Origin: Aquisphaera giovannonii
Lineage (GTDB): Bacteria; Planctomycetota; Planctomycetia; Isosphaerales; Isosphaeraceae
Length of the DNA stretch: 64,000 nt
Assembly: GCF_008087625.1 (NCBI RefSeq)
Contig: NZ_CP042997.1
Location: 2,294,001 to 2,358,000 of the forward strand
Direction: 5' to 3'
In this document: positions 1 to 39,508 of the stretch, in pieces
Layout: every line of letters starts with the position of its first letter
Numbering within the stretch: position 1 is the first letter of the stretch
Program-made: the position numbers and the translations under genes
The notes under the pieces: model-generated
The model's database searches: none
Seen by the model: the letters and a program-made list of their open reading frames with translations, nothing else
Told to the model about the DNA's origin: nothing

Positions 1-3000
1 AAGCGCCCGGACGCGCTCGACGTACTCGGCGATCCGACCCGGCTGCACCCGCTCGACGACCGGAAGCAGGGCCGCGGCCAGGTTCGCCGCCGCATTCGGC
101 CCCCACACGCCGCCTCCGCCGAATCCCCGTTCCATGACTCGCGGGAAGGTCCGGAAGGCCTCCTCAAGGAGTTCCCGGGCTGCCGCGGGATCCGTGGAGA
201 ACAGGTCGTCCGCCATCCTCCCGAACGCCAAGCCGCGGAGCACGTCGAGCCTGATCCCCGTCGCGATGCGACGGGCGCGGGCCAGGTCCGCCCGGGCCAT
301 CCGGACGCATACCTTGACTGGGTCGTTGGCGGAGTTGTTCCAGGTCTGGAGACCGAGGAACCGTTCCGCCTCTTCCGGCCGGCTCGCGGCGATCCCGCGA
401 GCGACCGCCCCGCGGAGGTCGTTGAGCTCGCGTTCATCCCCCGCTGCCGGAATTCGACCAAGTGCCGCCTTCAGGTCGATCCGGGCGAGCATGGGCAGGA
501 TGGTCTGGAGGCGCCGCGGCGACGGGGCCGGATCACCTCCGATCGGCACCAGCGCGACGGCCTCGTCGACGATCTTCCCCGCCTGGTCCTTCTCCCCCAG
601 GTCGAGCAGGCGGATTGCCGCCTTGATCAGGAGCGATGCCCGCGTGTCCGGGTCCCCCTCGCGGCGGGCATCAAGGAGGGCCTCGTTCAGGAGCGACTTT
701 CTCAACGCGCCGCGATCGTCCGGCAAGGCGTCGAGGACCTCGAAGCGGGTGTAGCCGCGCCAGAAGTTGTTCGTGATCGTCGGGAGGATGGCCGCCGCAT
801 CCTCCGGTTGCGAGGCCATGATGGAATGCACGGCGGCGATCCGCACCGCGTTGTGGTTCCAGGGCGATTCGTTGGCGAGGCAACGCCGCATCGCGTCCGA
901 GGGATCGATCTTCGTCAGGACTTCCAACCCGCGGCCGAGGAGGTCCGGATCGTGCCCGTCCAGGATGGACTCGCGGAGCGGCTCGATGACTCGGCGGGCG
1001 AGCGCCACCGTCTCCTCGCGGCTCAGGCCGGTCCCTCGCGGCCGGATGGTCCCCTCCGGCGGCTGGTCCTCCCTGCGCAGCCTCATCGTGACGGTGGAGG
1101 CGTCCGGGCCGACATCGTGCCCATGGGCCCGGAACCCGTTCGCCTCGACGAGGAGCCGGGACGCGGCGGGCGGCAATCCGCCGAGCTCGAATCGGCCGTC
1201 CTCCCCGGTCGCCACCACGGTCAGCGGGCCGGGATTTCCCCAGTTCATCACCCGCGCACCGGCTATCGGCTTGCCGGCCGTGTCCGTCACCAAGCCGGCG
1301 ACAGATCGCAGCCGGTCCACTCGAAGGGGGCCGAGGTCCGCGGCGGACTTGCCATCAGACGTGATCTCTCGCGTCCCGGCGATACGGTAGCCCTGCGGAA
1401 CCGCGAACGCGCGGACGGTCGAGCCCGCGGTAAGCGGTAACAAGTGGTGAAAGCGACCCTGCGAATCCGTGGCGAGCGATTGCCTCTTCTGAGACATCGT
1501 CCCGGCCGCGGCGACCGGTCCTGGCTTGCCCAGGAGGTTGGCGATCACGAGGACGGCCGCGTCGGAGACCGGAGTTCCCCGCGTGTCCACCACGGTCCCC
1601 GAGATGGGGACGCTCGCGGTCTCGTCCGCTTGATGGGCATCGAGCCTCAGGACGAGGGGATCCCTGGAGGCGACGTCGAGCGATTCCCATTTCGGCTCGT
1701 CCCCCTCGAGGAGGGCCATGTACCGGTCGATCGGCCCTTCGGGCACGCCGCCGAGGGTGAACTCGCCGTGGTCGTTCGTCTTACCATGACCATGGTGCAA
1801 CGAATCCTGGATCGCCGCGACGGTCGCCCCGGCGACGGGCATCCCTGTGGCGCGGACCAGCTTCCCCTTGATCGTGACCGCGGGGACGGCTTCCAGGGGC
1901 GGCAGGTCGAATACCGCCGTCCCCGAAGTCACGCTGATCGGATCTCGCCTGTCCTCGCGAACCGCCGCGTAATTTCCTTTCATGGCGATGATCTGCATGG
2001 TCAGCATCCCGGGCAGGACATACGCGTCGAACCGGCCTTCCCCGTCGCTGGTCACCGTCTCGCCATGACCGGCGGGCCCGGAATTGCCCACATAGACGGA
2101 AGCCCCGGGGATCGGTTTGCCGGAGCCGTTCAGCCGAATGCTCCCGCGGACCTTGACCGCGGCGACGAGCGGGATGTCGGCCCGTGCGGTCGCGCCGGGT
2201 ATGACCTCGATCGGCTTCTGCCACCAGGGGCGGACCGGCCAGGACGGGTTGACGCGGCAACCGATCGTGAGGTTCCCGGAGGCGATGGCCGGCACGGAGA
2301 ACCGGCCGTCCTCCCCCGTCACGACCTCCGCCGCCCCCTCGGGCGGCATGCCCGTCGGATCGTTCAAGTTGGCCTCGCCCTCGGTGCTGAGATACACGGT
2401 CAGGCCACGCGCGTGTTCCGGCCGATCGGCGACGATCCGGCCCTCGACACGGCCCGCCCTTCGGAACACGATCGTCCTCCTGGCCGGCTCGCTCGCCCTG
2501 TCCACCAGCCGAAATCGCTGGATCCCGTGCTCCTTCGACGCGGCCTGGACCCTGAACAGCCCCTCCCGCGGCACGCCGGGGAGCGACGCGACGCCAGCGG
2601 CATCCGTGACGCCGCGTAGCTCGGCCAGCAGGCCGTGCGGGAGGTAGTTGTACGCCATCGGCGTCTTGAAGTGATGCGGCTCGACGACGACCCCGGCGAG
2701 CGGAAGACCATCCGGCCCCTGGACCCGGAACGACGTGTCGGTCGCGCCGCCCAGGCATAATTCGACGGGGCCTGGCCTACCGTCAAGGATCTCGTAGACG
2801 CTCACGCAGCCGATCGCATGACCGGGAGCATGGGCCCAGACAATCCAGGACTTCTCGTGGATCGGCCTGGAGGCCCAGGAGGCGGGGACGGAGAGCGTGA
2901 ATTGCCCCTCCGCATCCGTCGTCGCGTGGGCCGTCTCCGCGGGCGTCTGGACCATTGTCCAGGGCATCCAGATGCCGGCCCCGGCGATCGGTTTGCCGGC

Positions 3001-3951
3001 CTCGTCCGTGACTCGCCCGGTGACCGCACGGACAGGTTCCTTGCGGATCTCCCCCGCGGCCACGAGACCGATGGCGGCCATCCCAAGGCACGCGGCGACG
3101 CATCCCGTCAGGCCGATCACTCGCCGCAGGGCGGATCGCGTCATGGCCCCGATCACGCCGCGGGCGGCCTCCTCGGCCGCCGAGGAGACGAGGGTCGCCC
3201 CGTCCGCCTTCGTGCCCTTTATCACCGCGCGGGCGGTGCGTTCGGCCAGCTTCTCGAGCAGCATGTCTGAAGCCGCGTCTGCTTGTCGTCCGGCTAGGGC
3301 CACTAGGCCGGCGAGGGCCGCCGCCGGGGCGAGGCCGCGGCGGACGAGTCGCGACCGCAATTTCTCCTTGCCCCGGAGGAGCCGCGTCTGGAGGGTCCGC
3401 AGCGGGCAGGCGAGATCGCGGGCGGCCTGCTCATGGGTCTTGCCCTCGACATAGCAGAGGACGATCGGCGCCCGGTAACGCTCGGGGAGACGGCCCACCT
3501 CGTCGAAGACGCCGTGCAACCCGTCGACGGGCCCCGCCTGGGTCGCCCCGGTGACGGTGCTCCTCGATTCGGCCGCCTCTCGCTCGACGGCCCGGCGCCG
3601 GGCCGCGTCCACTTTCAGATGGCGGGAAACGCGGACGGCGACGCCGAACAGCCAGCTGGCGAGGGCGTCGCGGTCGCGGATCGAGGCGGCCCGGCGGGCC
3701 AGGACGAGGAAGGTGGCCTGACACGCGTCCTCGGCGTCGGCCGCGTCGCCCAGGATCGACCGGCAGACCCGCTCGACCATCGGACCGTGGCGCCGGGCGA
3801 GGGCCTCGAACGCCGAGTGCGCGTCCGCGGGATGGTCGCGGTCCAGGAACCGTTCGAGCAGCTCGCGATCCGAGTCGCGTCCGACCGCGCCGGCCGCGAA
3901 GAGGACGCCGATGTGCCTGGAGCTCTCCGCCGCCATCGCCTGCCGGGTCAT
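1..3951 (-). CDS. ECF sigma factor with membrane segment and carboxypeptidase-regulatory-like extension (partial)
   Basis: The frame is open for 1317 codons from ATG 3951 and runs off the left edge, so the C-terminus is missing. Residues about 30-110 form sigma region 2 (DAEDACQATFLVLARR) and about 145-205 form region 4 (LPERYRAPIVLCYVEGKTHEQAA). A hydrophobic segment follows at about 279-299. After it come repeated beta-sandwich units of the carboxypeptidase regulatory type (VTGRVTDEAGKPIAGA at about 310, RSVAGLVTDTAGKPIAGA later), then an Ala/Leu-rich, probably helical tail. Seen: sigma domains, membrane segment and repeats in one chain. Known: planctomycete ECF factors often carry long C-terminal extensions. 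Inferred: the sigma part is cytoplasmic and tethered to the membrane, and the extension senses something outside. The target regulon cannot be seen. The whole frame is GC-rich and continuous, with no frameshift. Confidence 0.85.
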   Translation of the reverse strand, partial: MTRQAMAAESSRHIGVLFAAGAVGRDSDRELLERFLDRDHPADAHSAFEALARRHGPMVERVCRSILGDAADAEDACQATFLVLARRAASIRDRDALASWLFGVAVRVSRHLKVDAARRRAVEREAAESRSTVTGATQAGPVDGLHGVFDEVGRLPERYRAPIVLCYVEGKTHEQAARDLACPLRTLQTRLLRGKEKLRSRLVRRGLAPAAALAGLVALAGRQADAASDMLLEKLAERTARAVIKGTKADGATLVSSAAEEAARGVIGAMTRSALRRVIGLTGCVAACLGMAAIGLVAAGEIRKEPVRAVTGRVTDEAGKPIAGAGIWMPWTMVQTPAETAHATTDAEGQFTLSVPASWASRPIHEKSWIVWAHAPGHAIGCVSVYEILDGRPGPVELCLGGATDTSFRVQGPDGLPLAGVVVEPHHFKTPMAYNYLPHGLLAELRGVTDAAGVASLPGVPREGLFRVQAASKEHGIQRFRLVDRASEPARRTIVFRRAGRVEGRIVADRPEHARGLTVYLSTEGEANLNDPTGMPPEGAAEVVTGEDGRFSVPAIASGNLTIGCRVNPSWPVRPWWQKPIEVIPGATARADIPLVAAVKVRGSIRLNGSGKPIPGASVYVGNSGPAGHGETVTSDGEGRFDAYVLPGMLTMQIIAMKGNYAAVREDRRDPISVTSGTAVFDLPPLEAVPAVTIKGKLVRATGMPVAGATVAAIQDSLHHGHGKTNDHGEFTLGGVPEGPIDRYMALLEGDEPKWESLDVASRDPLVLRLDAHQADETASVPISGTVVDTRGTPVSDAAVLVIANLLGKPGPVAAAGTMSQKRQSLATDSQGRFHHLLPLTAGSTVRAFAVPQGYRIAGTREITSDGKSAADLGPLRVDRLRSVAGLVTDTAGKPIAGARVMNWGNPGPLTVVATGEDGRFELGGLPPAASRLLVEANGFRAHGHDVGPDASTVTMRLRREDQPPEGTIRPRGTGLSREETVALARRVIEPLRESILDGHDPDLLGRGLEVLTKIDPSDAMRRCLANESPWNHNAVRIAAVHSIMASQPEDAAAILPTITNNFWRGYTRFEVLDALPDDRGALRKSLLNEALLDARREGDPDTRASLLIKAAIRLLDLGEKDQAGKIVDEAVALVPIGGDPAPSPRRLQTILPMLARIDLKAALGRIPAAGDERELNDLRGAVARGIAASRPEEAERFLGLQTWNNSANDPVKVCVRMARADLARARRIATGIRLDVLRGLAFGRMADDLFSTDPAAARELLEEAFRTFPRVMERGFGGGGVWGPNAAANLAAALLPVVERVQPGRIAEYVERVRAL

Positions 3952-4040: not shown

Positions 4041-5363
4041 TCAGCAGAATGGCTTGAAGGCGCGACGCATCGACGCGGCGTCGGGGAACCGCTCCTTCGG
4101 CTCGCGGGCCAGGCACTTCTCGATGACCGCGGCCAGTTCGCGGGGGATGTCCCGCCGGCGCTGGAGGATGGGGACGGGCCTCTCCTCGAGGAGCATCCGG
4201 ATCAGGTCTCCGCCGCCCGCCGGCTCGTCGTAGATGTAATTCTGCGTCAACATGTAATAGAGCGTGGCGGCCGTCGAGTAGAGGTCCGCCAGCGGCGTGA
4301 CGGTCTTGAAGTCGAGCATCTGCTCCGGGGGCATGAAGGGGATCGTCCCCCGCATCTCGCCGGAGAAGGTCAGGCCGGAGAGGCCCACGCCGCGGAAGCT
4401 CTTGGCGAGGCCGAAGTCCGAGATCTTGGCGATCAGGCCGTCCTCATTCCGCGTGATGAGGATGTTCTCCGGCTTGATGTCGCGATGGACGAACCCCATG
4501 CGATGGGCCTGCTCCAGCCCCTTGAGGACCTGGCAGATCAGGCGGCAGGCCTGGTTGACGGGATACGGGCCGCCCTGCTCGTTGACCAGGGCCTCCAGGT
4601 TCGTGCCCGCCACGAGCTCCATCGCGAACCAGAACTGGCCGCGGGTCATGCCCTGCTCGTACCATTCCACGATGTTCGGGTGCCGCAGGCGGCTGATCAC
4701 CGACATCTCGCGATAGAACCGGTCGATCGCGGTCCGCGTGGTCGCCGTCTCGGGCATGATCAGCTTGAGGGCCGCCATCTGGCCCGTCTGATTGTGCCGC
4801 GCCTGGTAGACGATGCCCATCGCCCCGCGTCCGATCTCCCGCAGGGTCGTGTAGTGAGGGACCGGCTGCGGCAGCGCGCCGGACTCGGCCCGGCAGAGCG
4901 GGCACCACCACTCGACGACTTCCGTGGCCTCGCCGCTCACCGGGCCGGTCACCGTCACGTCCATCGGCGCGGCGACCCCGCAGCCCGAGCAACGGATCGC
5001 GGCGATCCCGCCCTCTTCCCCGGGGCGTCCCGCCACCGCCCCGCCGGATTCGCTCGTGGCGGAACCCAGCTCCACCCTCACGCGGAAGAGGCTCTGCCCC
5101 GCCGCGATCACGTCCCCGGACGCCAGCCTCGCCCGCGAGACCCTCTCGTTGTTCACGAAGGTCCCGTTCGTGCTCCCCAGGTCGCGCAGCTCGCAGATCG
5201 GCGGGTTGATCTCGATCATGAAGTGGTCACGCGACAGCGCCATGTCGTCGGACATCGGGCAATGCACGAACCGGGACCGGCCCACGATGAAGGTGTCGTG
5301 GCGGTCGAACGTGAAGGAACGACCCTTGCGCGGGCCCTGGAGAACTTCGAGGATCACTCGCAT
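4041..5363 (-). CDS. FHA domain-zinc ribbon-Ser/Thr protein kinase
   Basis: A cytoplasmic signalling kinase of about 440 residues. Counting from the chosen start (ATG 5363), an FHA domain occupies about 1-100 (IVGRS, SRDHFMIE, LGSTNGTFVNN). Two CxxC pairs at C125/C128 and C154/C157 look like a zinc ribbon. A Hanks-type kinase follows from about 172 with glycine loop IGRGAMG, ATP lysine K200 (AALKLI), HRDIKPEN at 293-300 and DFG at 316. All catalytic residues are present. An in-frame ATG at 5447 would add 28 residues without homology to the FHA fold, so the inner start is preferred. No transmembrane segment is visible. It lies just upstream of the ECF sigma gene on the same strand, but a functional link is only inferred. 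FHA domains bind phosphothreonine, so autophosphorylation may recruit partners or self-regulate. Confidence 0.9.
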   Translation of the reverse strand: MRVILEVLQGPRKGRSFTFDRHDTFIVGRSRFVHCPMSDDMALSRDHFMIEINPPICELRDLGSTNGTFVNNERVSRARLASGDVIAAGQSLFRVRVELGSATSESGGAVAGRPGEEGGIAAIRCSGCGVAAPMDVTVTGPVSGEATEVVEWWCPLCRAESGALPQPVPHYTTLREIGRGAMGIVYQARHNQTGQMAALKLIMPETATTRTAIDRFYREMSVISRLRHPNIVEWYEQGMTRGQFWFAMELVAGTNLEALVNEQGGPYPVNQACRLICQVLKGLEQAHRMGFVHRDIKPENILITRNEDGLIAKISDFGLAKSFRGVGLSGLTFSGEMRGTIPFMPPEQMLDFKTVTPLADLYSTAATLYYMLTQNYIYDEPAGGGDLIRMLLEERPVPILQRRRDIPRELAAVIEKCLAREPKERFPDAASMRRAFKPFC

Positions 5364-5813
5364 CGATTCATTCCGCGGCTCGTTTATCCCTCGACCCTGG
5401 GGCGTCGCACGACTCGGCAATGTTCCTGATTGCATGAGACCTGCCATCGCGCGTCACGCGACCCTCGCTTCTGCCTCAGTGGATCCTATCAGTGAGTACG
5501 TCGAACGGCCCCCTGTCGTGGCAGAGAAATCCCTAGTTCGGCACCGCAGCGGGCAGAGATCGACCACCGATGTATGAGGCAATGAGGCTTCCGGCATGGG
5601 AAGGGGAGATTGGGGAGGCATCACCCCTCGCGGATTCCGGCACGATACAGATAGTATGCGCACGGCTAGTGGCCCGGAGCGAACTACCCGAAATTCGCCC
5701 GCGGCGCGTATCATGTGTGAATGAATGCCTTTTGTGCGCCGCGGCCTTGGCGTGGAGCGATAAGGCCCCGCAGGCTTGCCCGGGGCCGACTCACCAGCAG
5801 CGAGAGGGGAATG
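5364..5813. other. Intergenic region between divergent kinase and psuG genes
   Basis: About 450 bases between divergent genes. It should hold promoters for both, but I see no convincing -35/-10 pair. A GAGAGGGGA ribosome binding site sits at its right end just before psuG. Confidence 0.4.
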
Positions 5814-37966: not shown

Positions 37967-39508
37967 ATGTGGTTCGAGCTGGACCGCTTCAGCCGGACCC
38001 TCACCGATGCGACGCTGGCGACCCTGGCCCTGCTGAGCGCCATGGTCCTGGCGATGCTCTTCTGCGAGCAGCCGGTCCGGCGGATGGTCATCGCCCGCTG
38101 GTCGGTCATCCTGGCCGCCCTGATGCTCCCCGTCGTCGCGCTCAATCCATGGCGCCCGGGGGACGTGCTGGCCTGGCCTCCTCGCGAACGCGCGTCCGTC
38201 GAATCCGACTGGGAGCCCGCACCCGGCGTCGATGCCCCCGCGCGAGGCGCGGGCGGCGAGGTATCGATCTGGCGGACCCTGGCCACGGAGGAATTCACCC
38301 GGCGGATCCTCCGCGAGCTGTCGCTCCTCTACCTGATCGGAGTCGGGGGCTCGCTCGCCTGGAACGTGCTGGGGATCTGGGGGGCGACGAGGCTCGCCGC
38401 CGCCGCGGACGAGCCGGAGGCCGCGACGAAGGCCCTCTTCGCCGACGTCTCCCGCACGCTCGGGGTCGGGCGTGACGAGGTCCTCCTCGCGGTGTCGCCG
38501 CGGGTGAAACGGCCGGTCGCCGCGGGGCTGAGGAAGGTGCACATCCTCATACCCCCGGCGTTCGATCGGCCGGACTTCGATCGCGAGTCGCTCCGGACGA
38601 TCCTCCTGCACGAACTGACGCACGTACGCGAGGGGGACCCTCAGTTCCAGGCCCTGGCGGGGCTCAGCCAATCGCTCTGGTTCTTCTTGCCCCATATCTG
38701 GTGGATCCTGGCCCAGATCCGCATCGACCGGGAGTTCCGCGCCGACCAGCGCGTCGCGGAGGCTCTCGGCTCGGCGTCACGTTACGCGACATTGCTGGTC
38801 GTACTCGCCTCGTATGCGGGCCGGGGGAAGGTGCCGGAGGAACCCGACCGGACGCGATTGCTCGCGCAGTCGGCGCGGCCGGGCTGGTGGTGGGCCGGCG
38901 GCCTGCGAAATCCGCTGCTTCAAAGAGTGGTCATGCTCCTGCACTGTCCGTTCCCGATCGAGGCCCGGCCGCCGCTCTGGTGGACGCGGGTCGTCCCCGC
39001 GCTGGCCTGCGCCCTCGCGGCGTTCGCGTCCTCCTGGACGATCTTCACGCCCCGGGCGGCCGATGCGGGCTGGATATCCGCATCCCCTTCGGCCTCCTCC
39101 CTCGCCGAGAGTCGTTTCCACGTCGATCGCTTCGTGGCCGTCCCCAAGGGTTATGTGCGGATCGGACGCAGTGCGCCCCACGTCCTCCCCGTCCTCCTGC
39201 CGGATCGCTTCATCCTGCGTGTCCGCATCGAGGCCACCACGGAGAGCCTCAGCCGGACCCGGCTCGCAGGGCTTCCCCTGCGCGACTGGAACCTTGCCAT
39301 GGTGCCCCGTCAACCCGAGCTGGATACTCCCTCGTTGCCCGCGATGCATGATGTCGTCATCGAGCGCGACGGAATGTTCCTAAGGCTCTGGGTGGACGAG
39401 GCTCGCATCCGAGTGGACCTTCCCCGCGATCACGTTTCGGAGTGGCTCACCATCGAGCCTCCCCCCGACGATACCGTCGTGCTCCACGAGCTCGACGTGA
39501 GCTGGTAG
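37967..39508 (+). CDS. M56 family (BlaR1-like) membrane metallopeptidase
   Basis: A 513-residue membrane protease. Several N-terminal hydrophobic helices (TLATLALLSAMVLAMLF, WSVILAALMLPVVALNP, LYLIGVGGSLAWNVLG) precede the zinc motif HELTHVREGD (H215, E216, H219). The helix-loop after it (IDREFRADQRVAEAL) contains the third ligand. Another hydrophobic segment occurs near 350 (VVPALACALAAFASSW). The C-terminal roughly 140 residues are probably outside the membrane and do not resemble the penicillin-binding sensor of BlaR1. The signal is unknown. It presumably cleaves or destabilises the neighbouring BlaI-like repressor. The ATG follows GAGGTCCCCGCC. Confidence 0.85.
   Translation: MWFELDRFSRTLTDATLATLALLSAMVLAMLFCEQPVRRMVIARWSVILAALMLPVVALNPWRPGDVLAWPPRERASVESDWEPAPGVDAPARGAGGEVSIWRTLATEEFTRRILRELSLLYLIGVGGSLAWNVLGIWGATRLAAAADEPEAATKALFADVSRTLGVGRDEVLLAVSPRVKRPVAAGLRKVHILIPPAFDRPDFDRESLRTILLHELTHVREGDPQFQALAGLSQSLWFFLPHIWWILAQIRIDREFRADQRVAEALGSASRYATLLVVLASYAGRGKVPEEPDRTRLLAQSARPGWWWAGGLRNPLLQRVVMLLHCPFPIEARPPLWWTRVVPALACALAAFASSWTIFTPRAADAGWISASPSASSLAESRFHVDRFVAVPKGYVRIGRSAPHVLPVLLPDRFILRVRIEATTESLSRTRLAGLPLRDWNLAMVPRQPELDTPSLPAMHDVVIERDGMFLRLWVDEARIRVDLPRDHVSEWLTIEPPPDDTVVLHELDVSW

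Follow-up and report, generated by a model that had tools for sequence, protein, structure and literature searches.

A probable one-piece outside-to-gene sensor of the planctomycete ECF57 family in Aquisphaera giovannonii

We identified in Aquisphaera giovannonii a sigma factor gene whose product is, judging from its sequence, probably a one-piece outside-to-gene sensor of the planctomycete ECF57 family. The gene lies at one end of the window, the 64,000-nucleotide stretch of contig NZ_CP042997.1 (positions 2,294,001 to 2,358,000) that was analyzed. Computation places an intact sigma fold, a single transmembrane helix, and a long extension homologous to parts of receptor-borne and exported proteins in one polypeptide. 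Our preferred reading, to which we give a probability of roughly 60%, is that of a one-component, membrane-spanning ECF57-type sigma factor in which an outside ligand or partner would lead to cleavage at the membrane and free the sigma head. Planctomycete genomes carry dozens of such sigma factors each, and in the accessible literature we found no worked-out mechanism for them.

The gene (1..3951; minus strand, as are the other features of this gene given below) is a single unbroken frame from an ATG at 3951, with GGAGG 7 nt on its 5' side, to the window edge at position 1. The stop codon lies 411 nt beyond the window in the assembly, so that the full protein has 1453 residues, with 1317 of the 1453 codons inside the window. 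Sigma region 2 (residues 51-112; 3616..3801) matches Pfam Sigma70_r2 with an E-value of 1e-10, and sigma region 4 (residues 153-198; 3358..3495), which contains the helix-turn-helix, matches Sigma70_r4_2 with an E-value of 1.5e-11. Both domains are well formed in an AlphaFold2 model of residues 1-330 made with 50 aligned heads (mean pLDDT of 82.5), and the best PDB matches of this model are sigmaE, SigW, and other ECF factors, with SigK also fitting. Against region 2 of Escherichia coli sigmaE (4lup), the model gives a Z-score of 13.9 and an rmsd of 1.6 over 91 aligned residues. The proposal in an earlier note on this DNA that both sigma regions are intact is thus borne out by Pfam matches and the fold model alike.

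Some 1250 residues lie C-terminal to region 4. They comprise a predicted cytoplasmic linker of 80 residues (199-278; 3118..3357), a membrane helix (residues 279-297; 3061..3117), about seven transthyretin/CnaB-like beta-sandwich repeats of the CarboxypepD_reg type (residues 308-958; 1078..3030), and a TPR-like alpha-solenoid tail from residue 978 to residue 1453 (1..1020) that runs past the window. In the head model, one unbroken helix, 257-299, spans the hydrophobic stretch. The earlier note had also described carboxypeptidase-regulatory-like repeats and a helical tail, and we recover both: Pfam finds CarboxypepD_reg in five stretches of the protein (E 1e-44), a repeat profile finds seven copies, and a model of residues 301-1453 (mean pLDDT of 81) is a chain of beta-sandwiches that gives way to the alpha-solenoid at about residue 978. 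The repeats resemble the transthyretin domain of carboxypeptidase D (5aq0; Z 11.9, rmsd 1.7, 77 aligned) and a pilin CnaB2 domain (8bdw; Z 10.9, rmsd 2.3, 94 aligned). The solenoid matches TPR proteins at a Z-score of about 10, a value that for repeats may reflect just a common arrangement. The comparison with known ligand-binding domains that had been suggested thus leads to carboxypeptidase D and CnaB folds, which are generic matches from which no ligand can be named.

These structural likenesses, together with the occurrence of related extensions on proteins that have no sigma head, would also suit a decayed or inactive copy, or a structural surface protein whose sigma head is of no consequence, the matched domains being structural in pilins and accessory in carboxypeptidases. 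We find this barely credible, given that all 1453 codons are open and that orthologues with the same architecture are present in three further genomes, at identities of 59%, 45%, and 42% (in the most distant of them, the contig breaks off after residue 1181). The head is also more conserved than the whole protein, with 72% versus 59% identity in the orthologue L095.

The hydrophobic segment had been placed at about residues 279-299, and we see it at 279-297, with a mean Kyte-Doolittle (KD) hydropathy of 2.14. Shuffled versions of residues 199-310 attain this value in 9% of trials, so by composition the segment is not striking in a single protein; what makes it striking is its recurrence at a similar position in the paralogues. 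After region 4, a hydrophobic segment with a KD of at least 1.45, a value attained by 3.7% of 37-residue windows in long frames, is found in 48 of 51 paralogue heads of the same genome, 40 to 101 residues past region 4 and mostly 55 to 91. Across these 48 heads, lysines and arginines flanking the helix are more numerous on its N-terminal than on its C-terminal side in 27, equal in 12, and fewer in 9. The window protein has a second, weaker hydrophobic stretch at residues 202-220 (KD of 1.51), and if the two stretches formed a hairpin of membrane helices, the extension would be cytoplasmic. However, because residues 202-220 are interrupted by charges in the nearest orthologue and the stretch is not conserved, few paralogues having an equivalent, the protein is best read as having one transmembrane helix. 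Elsewhere, homologous extensions come after signal-peptide-like segments or BlaR1-type helices, and the hairpin seems to us highly improbable.

There is strong comparative support, from hydropathy and homology, for a topology with the sigma head inside and the extension outside. The search for homologues of the extension covered 45 genomes from the same family and 294 from across the phylum, and 38 extensions, mostly from the window's family and with one double-listed entry left out, were inspected at their N-termini. One is cut off there. Among the 37 that can be read, four sit on a sigma head with a transmembrane helix, four on M56 peptidases, and 29 behind a signal-peptide-like segment, although a few of these 29 (some from other families) match just part of the extension module. 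The segment has a KD15 of at least 1.7 in 26 of the 29 cases, versus 6% of control windows taken inside extensions, and none of the 38 belongs to an evidently cytoplasmic protein. Five further proteins encoded in the same genome pass directly from a signal-peptide-like segment into these repeats. Another, L031, is a BlaR1-type M56 peptidase (PF05569, E 5e-28) with a homologous C-terminal extension, the homology covering the whole length, solenoid included. Directly upstream of the L031 gene, across a gap of 3 nt, is a gene for a BlaI-type repressor (PF03965, E 2e-24), the pair lying at L031 2093-7081 on the minus strand. L143, an M56 protein from a different genome of the genus, is likewise encoded next to a BlaI-type gene. 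The placement of homologous extensions behind signal-peptide-like segments or on BlaR1-type receptors argues for a head inside and an extension outside, as does the tendency of the paralogues toward positive charge on the inside. The outside-sensing topology of the earlier note is therefore backed as to orientation, while the location itself is still read from homology and hydropathy.

The window contains another M56 (BlaR1-family) peptidase domain at about 38300-38803 on the plus strand (genome positions 2332300-2332803), and the genome as a whole gives 18 M56 matches, most of them with a BlaI-like gene nearby.

A search of the same genome with the window protein returned 74 matches. The extensions behind the sigma heads among them are very different from one another; 11 of 50 match CarboxypepD_reg, and others match WD40, PD40, or SBP_bac_10. 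The linker, in contrast to such variety, is partly conserved across paralogues, with the pattern RRG.AP...VP..L...T.RAA...LA.GV...M. Two cysteines, Cys63 (codon at 3763..3765) and Cys166 (codon at 3454..3456), are each present in 49 of the 50 aligned heads, and both are present in 48. A review describes ECF57 as a group with C-terminal extensions and with a conserved cysteine pair that may form a sigma2-sigma4 link; this planctomycete group has WP_015250107.1 of Singulisphaera acidiphila as an example (PMC8999054). Because the cysteines and the extensions match this description, we file the window protein, on its sequence features, with this recognized family as an ECF57-like factor. The earlier remark that planctomycete relatives were known from genome survey was right.

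The factor had been expected to work without an anti-sigma factor. We saw no anti-sigma gene among the genes adjoining it, and we considered and rejected the idea that the linker harbors an anti-sigma or zinc-binding domain, as residues 199-278 contain no cysteine, no histidine, and no anti-sigma Pfam domain. To this extent the expectation holds, but what supports it is an absence, and the conserved 80-residue linker could itself act as the anti-sigma element.

The upstream neighbor (4041..5447, minus strand) encodes an FHA domain and a Ser/Thr protein kinase, as identified by FHA and Pkinase matches. On the downstream side is a gene that we take, from its sequence, to be phoU. With the kinase gene only 89 nt away on the same strand, and with this arrangement kept within the genus, phoU included, one could suppose that the kinase mainly controls the sigma factor, as in the kinase-linked planctomycete ECF groups, and that the extension is a mere anchor. 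Yet the synteny goes no further than the genus, and the orthologue L096 has no adjoining kinase. An extension of 1150 residues that is conserved at full length in orthologues would also be a costly anchor. We consider control by the kinase improbable and, since the adjacency is lost outside the genus, rejected the kinase gene as a conserved partner.

In the cleavage reading that we prefer, the N-terminal 200 residues would form a complete cytoplasmic sigma2-sigma4 unit tethered by a single membrane helix, and the approximately 1150 residues outside, with seven transthyretin-like domains and the solenoid, would form a rod-like binding part. As long as the protein is uncleaved, the tether and linker would hold the head inactive. 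An outside ligand or partner, or its loss, would trigger cleavage at or in the membrane helix in the style of site-2 proteases, and the freed head could then bind RNA polymerase. We infer signal sensing, inhibition by tethering, and proteolytic release, and favor cleavage because IutY works in this way and SCO4117 is proposed to. IutY, a membrane-fused sigma factor, has been shown to be released by proteolysis, and SCO4117, of ECF52, is a membrane-anchored factor for which such release has been proposed (PMC8999054). M50 site-2 proteases are encoded in the same genome, including one in a 686-residue frame with the two halves of the family apart as in RseP, but as M50 proteases occur in 14 of 14 control genomes, their presence is weak evidence. 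No protease site was identified in the window protein.

The main rival to cleavage is a conformational mechanism, in which the sigma factor would stay tethered and act at the membrane, and regions 2 and 4 would open when the outside part changed the linker or the C63-C166 pair. The near-universal presence of both cysteines is consistent with this, as is the sigma2-sigma4 link proposed for ECF57 (cited in PMC8999054); the proposal for that group invokes protein interaction and cysteine chemistry, not proteolysis (PMC8999054). The predicted helix 257-299 would carry the linker unbroken through the membrane, and linker positions are conserved in paralogues whose extensions are unrelated. A tethered sigma factor would, however, reach promoters across a 10-Mb genome only awkwardly, and the membrane-fused precedent that has been tested, IutY, is released by cleavage. 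We regard the in-place mechanism as unlikely, with cleavage remaining the reading that we prefer.

We also observed, among the paralogues, a conserved internal ATG in the column of Met270, just ahead of the transmembrane helix. Of 50 heads, 35 have ATG here, and the Shine-Dalgarno-like sequence AGGAG is often spelled by the codons that precede it. The glycine of column 265 is encoded by GGA in 19 of 30 heads of the same genome versus 8% of glycines overall (p about 4e-14), in 16 of 18 heads from other genomes of the family (background of 17%), and in 40 of 44 among 54 heads of other families (background of 17%). In each of these three sets, it shows the strongest codon bias of any tested column. 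The AGGAG motif is counted 24 times, compared with 4.3 under a synonymous-codon null (the highest of 2000 trials being 9), and some paralogues have the same nucleotides encoding other amino acids, such as AAG GAG GTA for K-E-V. An ATG follows exactly 11 nt past the motif in 60 of 67 cases. The motif list was drawn up after the sequences had been seen, and the heads from other genomes and families were used as replication sets. With a median of 0.56 changes per site on the end branches of the paralogues, silent sites are unlikely to agree through common descent. Bearers of AGGAG occur among the L033-L079 heads (for example, L054, L060, and L074) and also among L149-L225.

Several results temper this picture. 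Other genes in this DNA mostly have a spacing of 6-9 nt at their starts, as opposed to 11 nt internally. AGGAG is present in 22 of 35 heads with the ATG versus 2 of 15 without it (Fisher p of 0.002), an apparent association for which the tree offers too few independent pairs to be decisive. A pairing-energy version of the internal-start test is weak (Stouffer Z of -1.7), the probable cause being that the anti-Shine-Dalgarno sequence pairs with GGC and GGG codons as well, and the codon test is the stronger of the two. AGGAG-ATG may serve to start translation of a sigma-less sensor internally, or to make the ribosome pause before membrane insertion. We tentatively suggest, at somewhat less than even odds, that many ECF57 genes are two in one, with the internal AGGAG-ATG also giving a sigma-less sensor that is membrane-anchored or secreted, and that the window gene and most of its transthyretin-type relatives have lost it. 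In the window gene, the internal ATG is present (3142..3144) and the upstream AGGAG is absent. If this loss is real, the window gene and most of those relatives would make the coupled form only. Our literature search turned up no report of internal starts within ECF genes, nor one of this extension module on M56 receptors.

Two other arrangements at the internal site were considered and rejected. The short frames that we inspected as possible genes split at the internal ATG proved to be a truncated copy, contig ends, and short extensions, with no clean split, and the sequences looked at showed no slippery run near the internal AGGAG that would suit a programmed frameshift. Separately, the tandem ECF57 copy L206, from a different genome, ends inside the transmembrane helix (MFVHKLKIAAV*) and is probably a truncated duplicate. 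Codon choice is also conserved elsewhere in the heads, with GGG at Gly56 and AGC at Ser189 (own-genome G000 heads, L033-L089 set); the latter may be inertia.

Among known systems, the window protein is closest to ECF57, with which it shares an ECF head consisting of sigma2 and sigma4 only, two conserved cysteines, one near each sigma domain, a C-terminal extension, and no obvious anti-sigma gene. The transmembrane helix is common to it and most ECF57-like paralogues in the same genome, whereas its extension is made of transthyretin repeats and a solenoid rather than WD40, which is prevalent in the group and not obligatory. ECF48, ECF52, and ECF53 (such as SCO4117) and IutY (ECF243) likewise have a C-terminal membrane-spanning extension with an outside part, but they belong to another phylum and carry a different outside part. 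The former have a zinc-finger anti-sigma domain between sigma4 and the transmembrane helix, where the window protein has a linker without one, and IutY has a FecR-like anti-sigma domain that is absent from the Pfam matches of the window protein. Kinase-linked groups (such as ECF59, ECF61, ECF62, and ECF217) have a conserved neighboring Ser/Thr kinase; here a kinase gene adjoins the sigma gene within the genus and is absent beside L096. With carboxypeptidase D and the CnaB domains of Gram-positive pilins, only the fold is shared, and the window protein contains no catalytic carboxypeptidase. The likeness to BlaR1/MecR1 and BlaI lies in the homologous outside module that M56 receptors carry in this genome and elsewhere in the family. 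The window protein differs in lacking the M56 peptidase (with the HExxH motif present in L031) and in carrying its own transcription factor, and the penicillin-binding sensor of BlaR1 is absent. Because a sigma factor, BlaR1-type receptors, and exported proteins share an outside module, a sensing role can be tested directly, and an exchange of sensors between one-protein and two-protein signaling routes is suggested.
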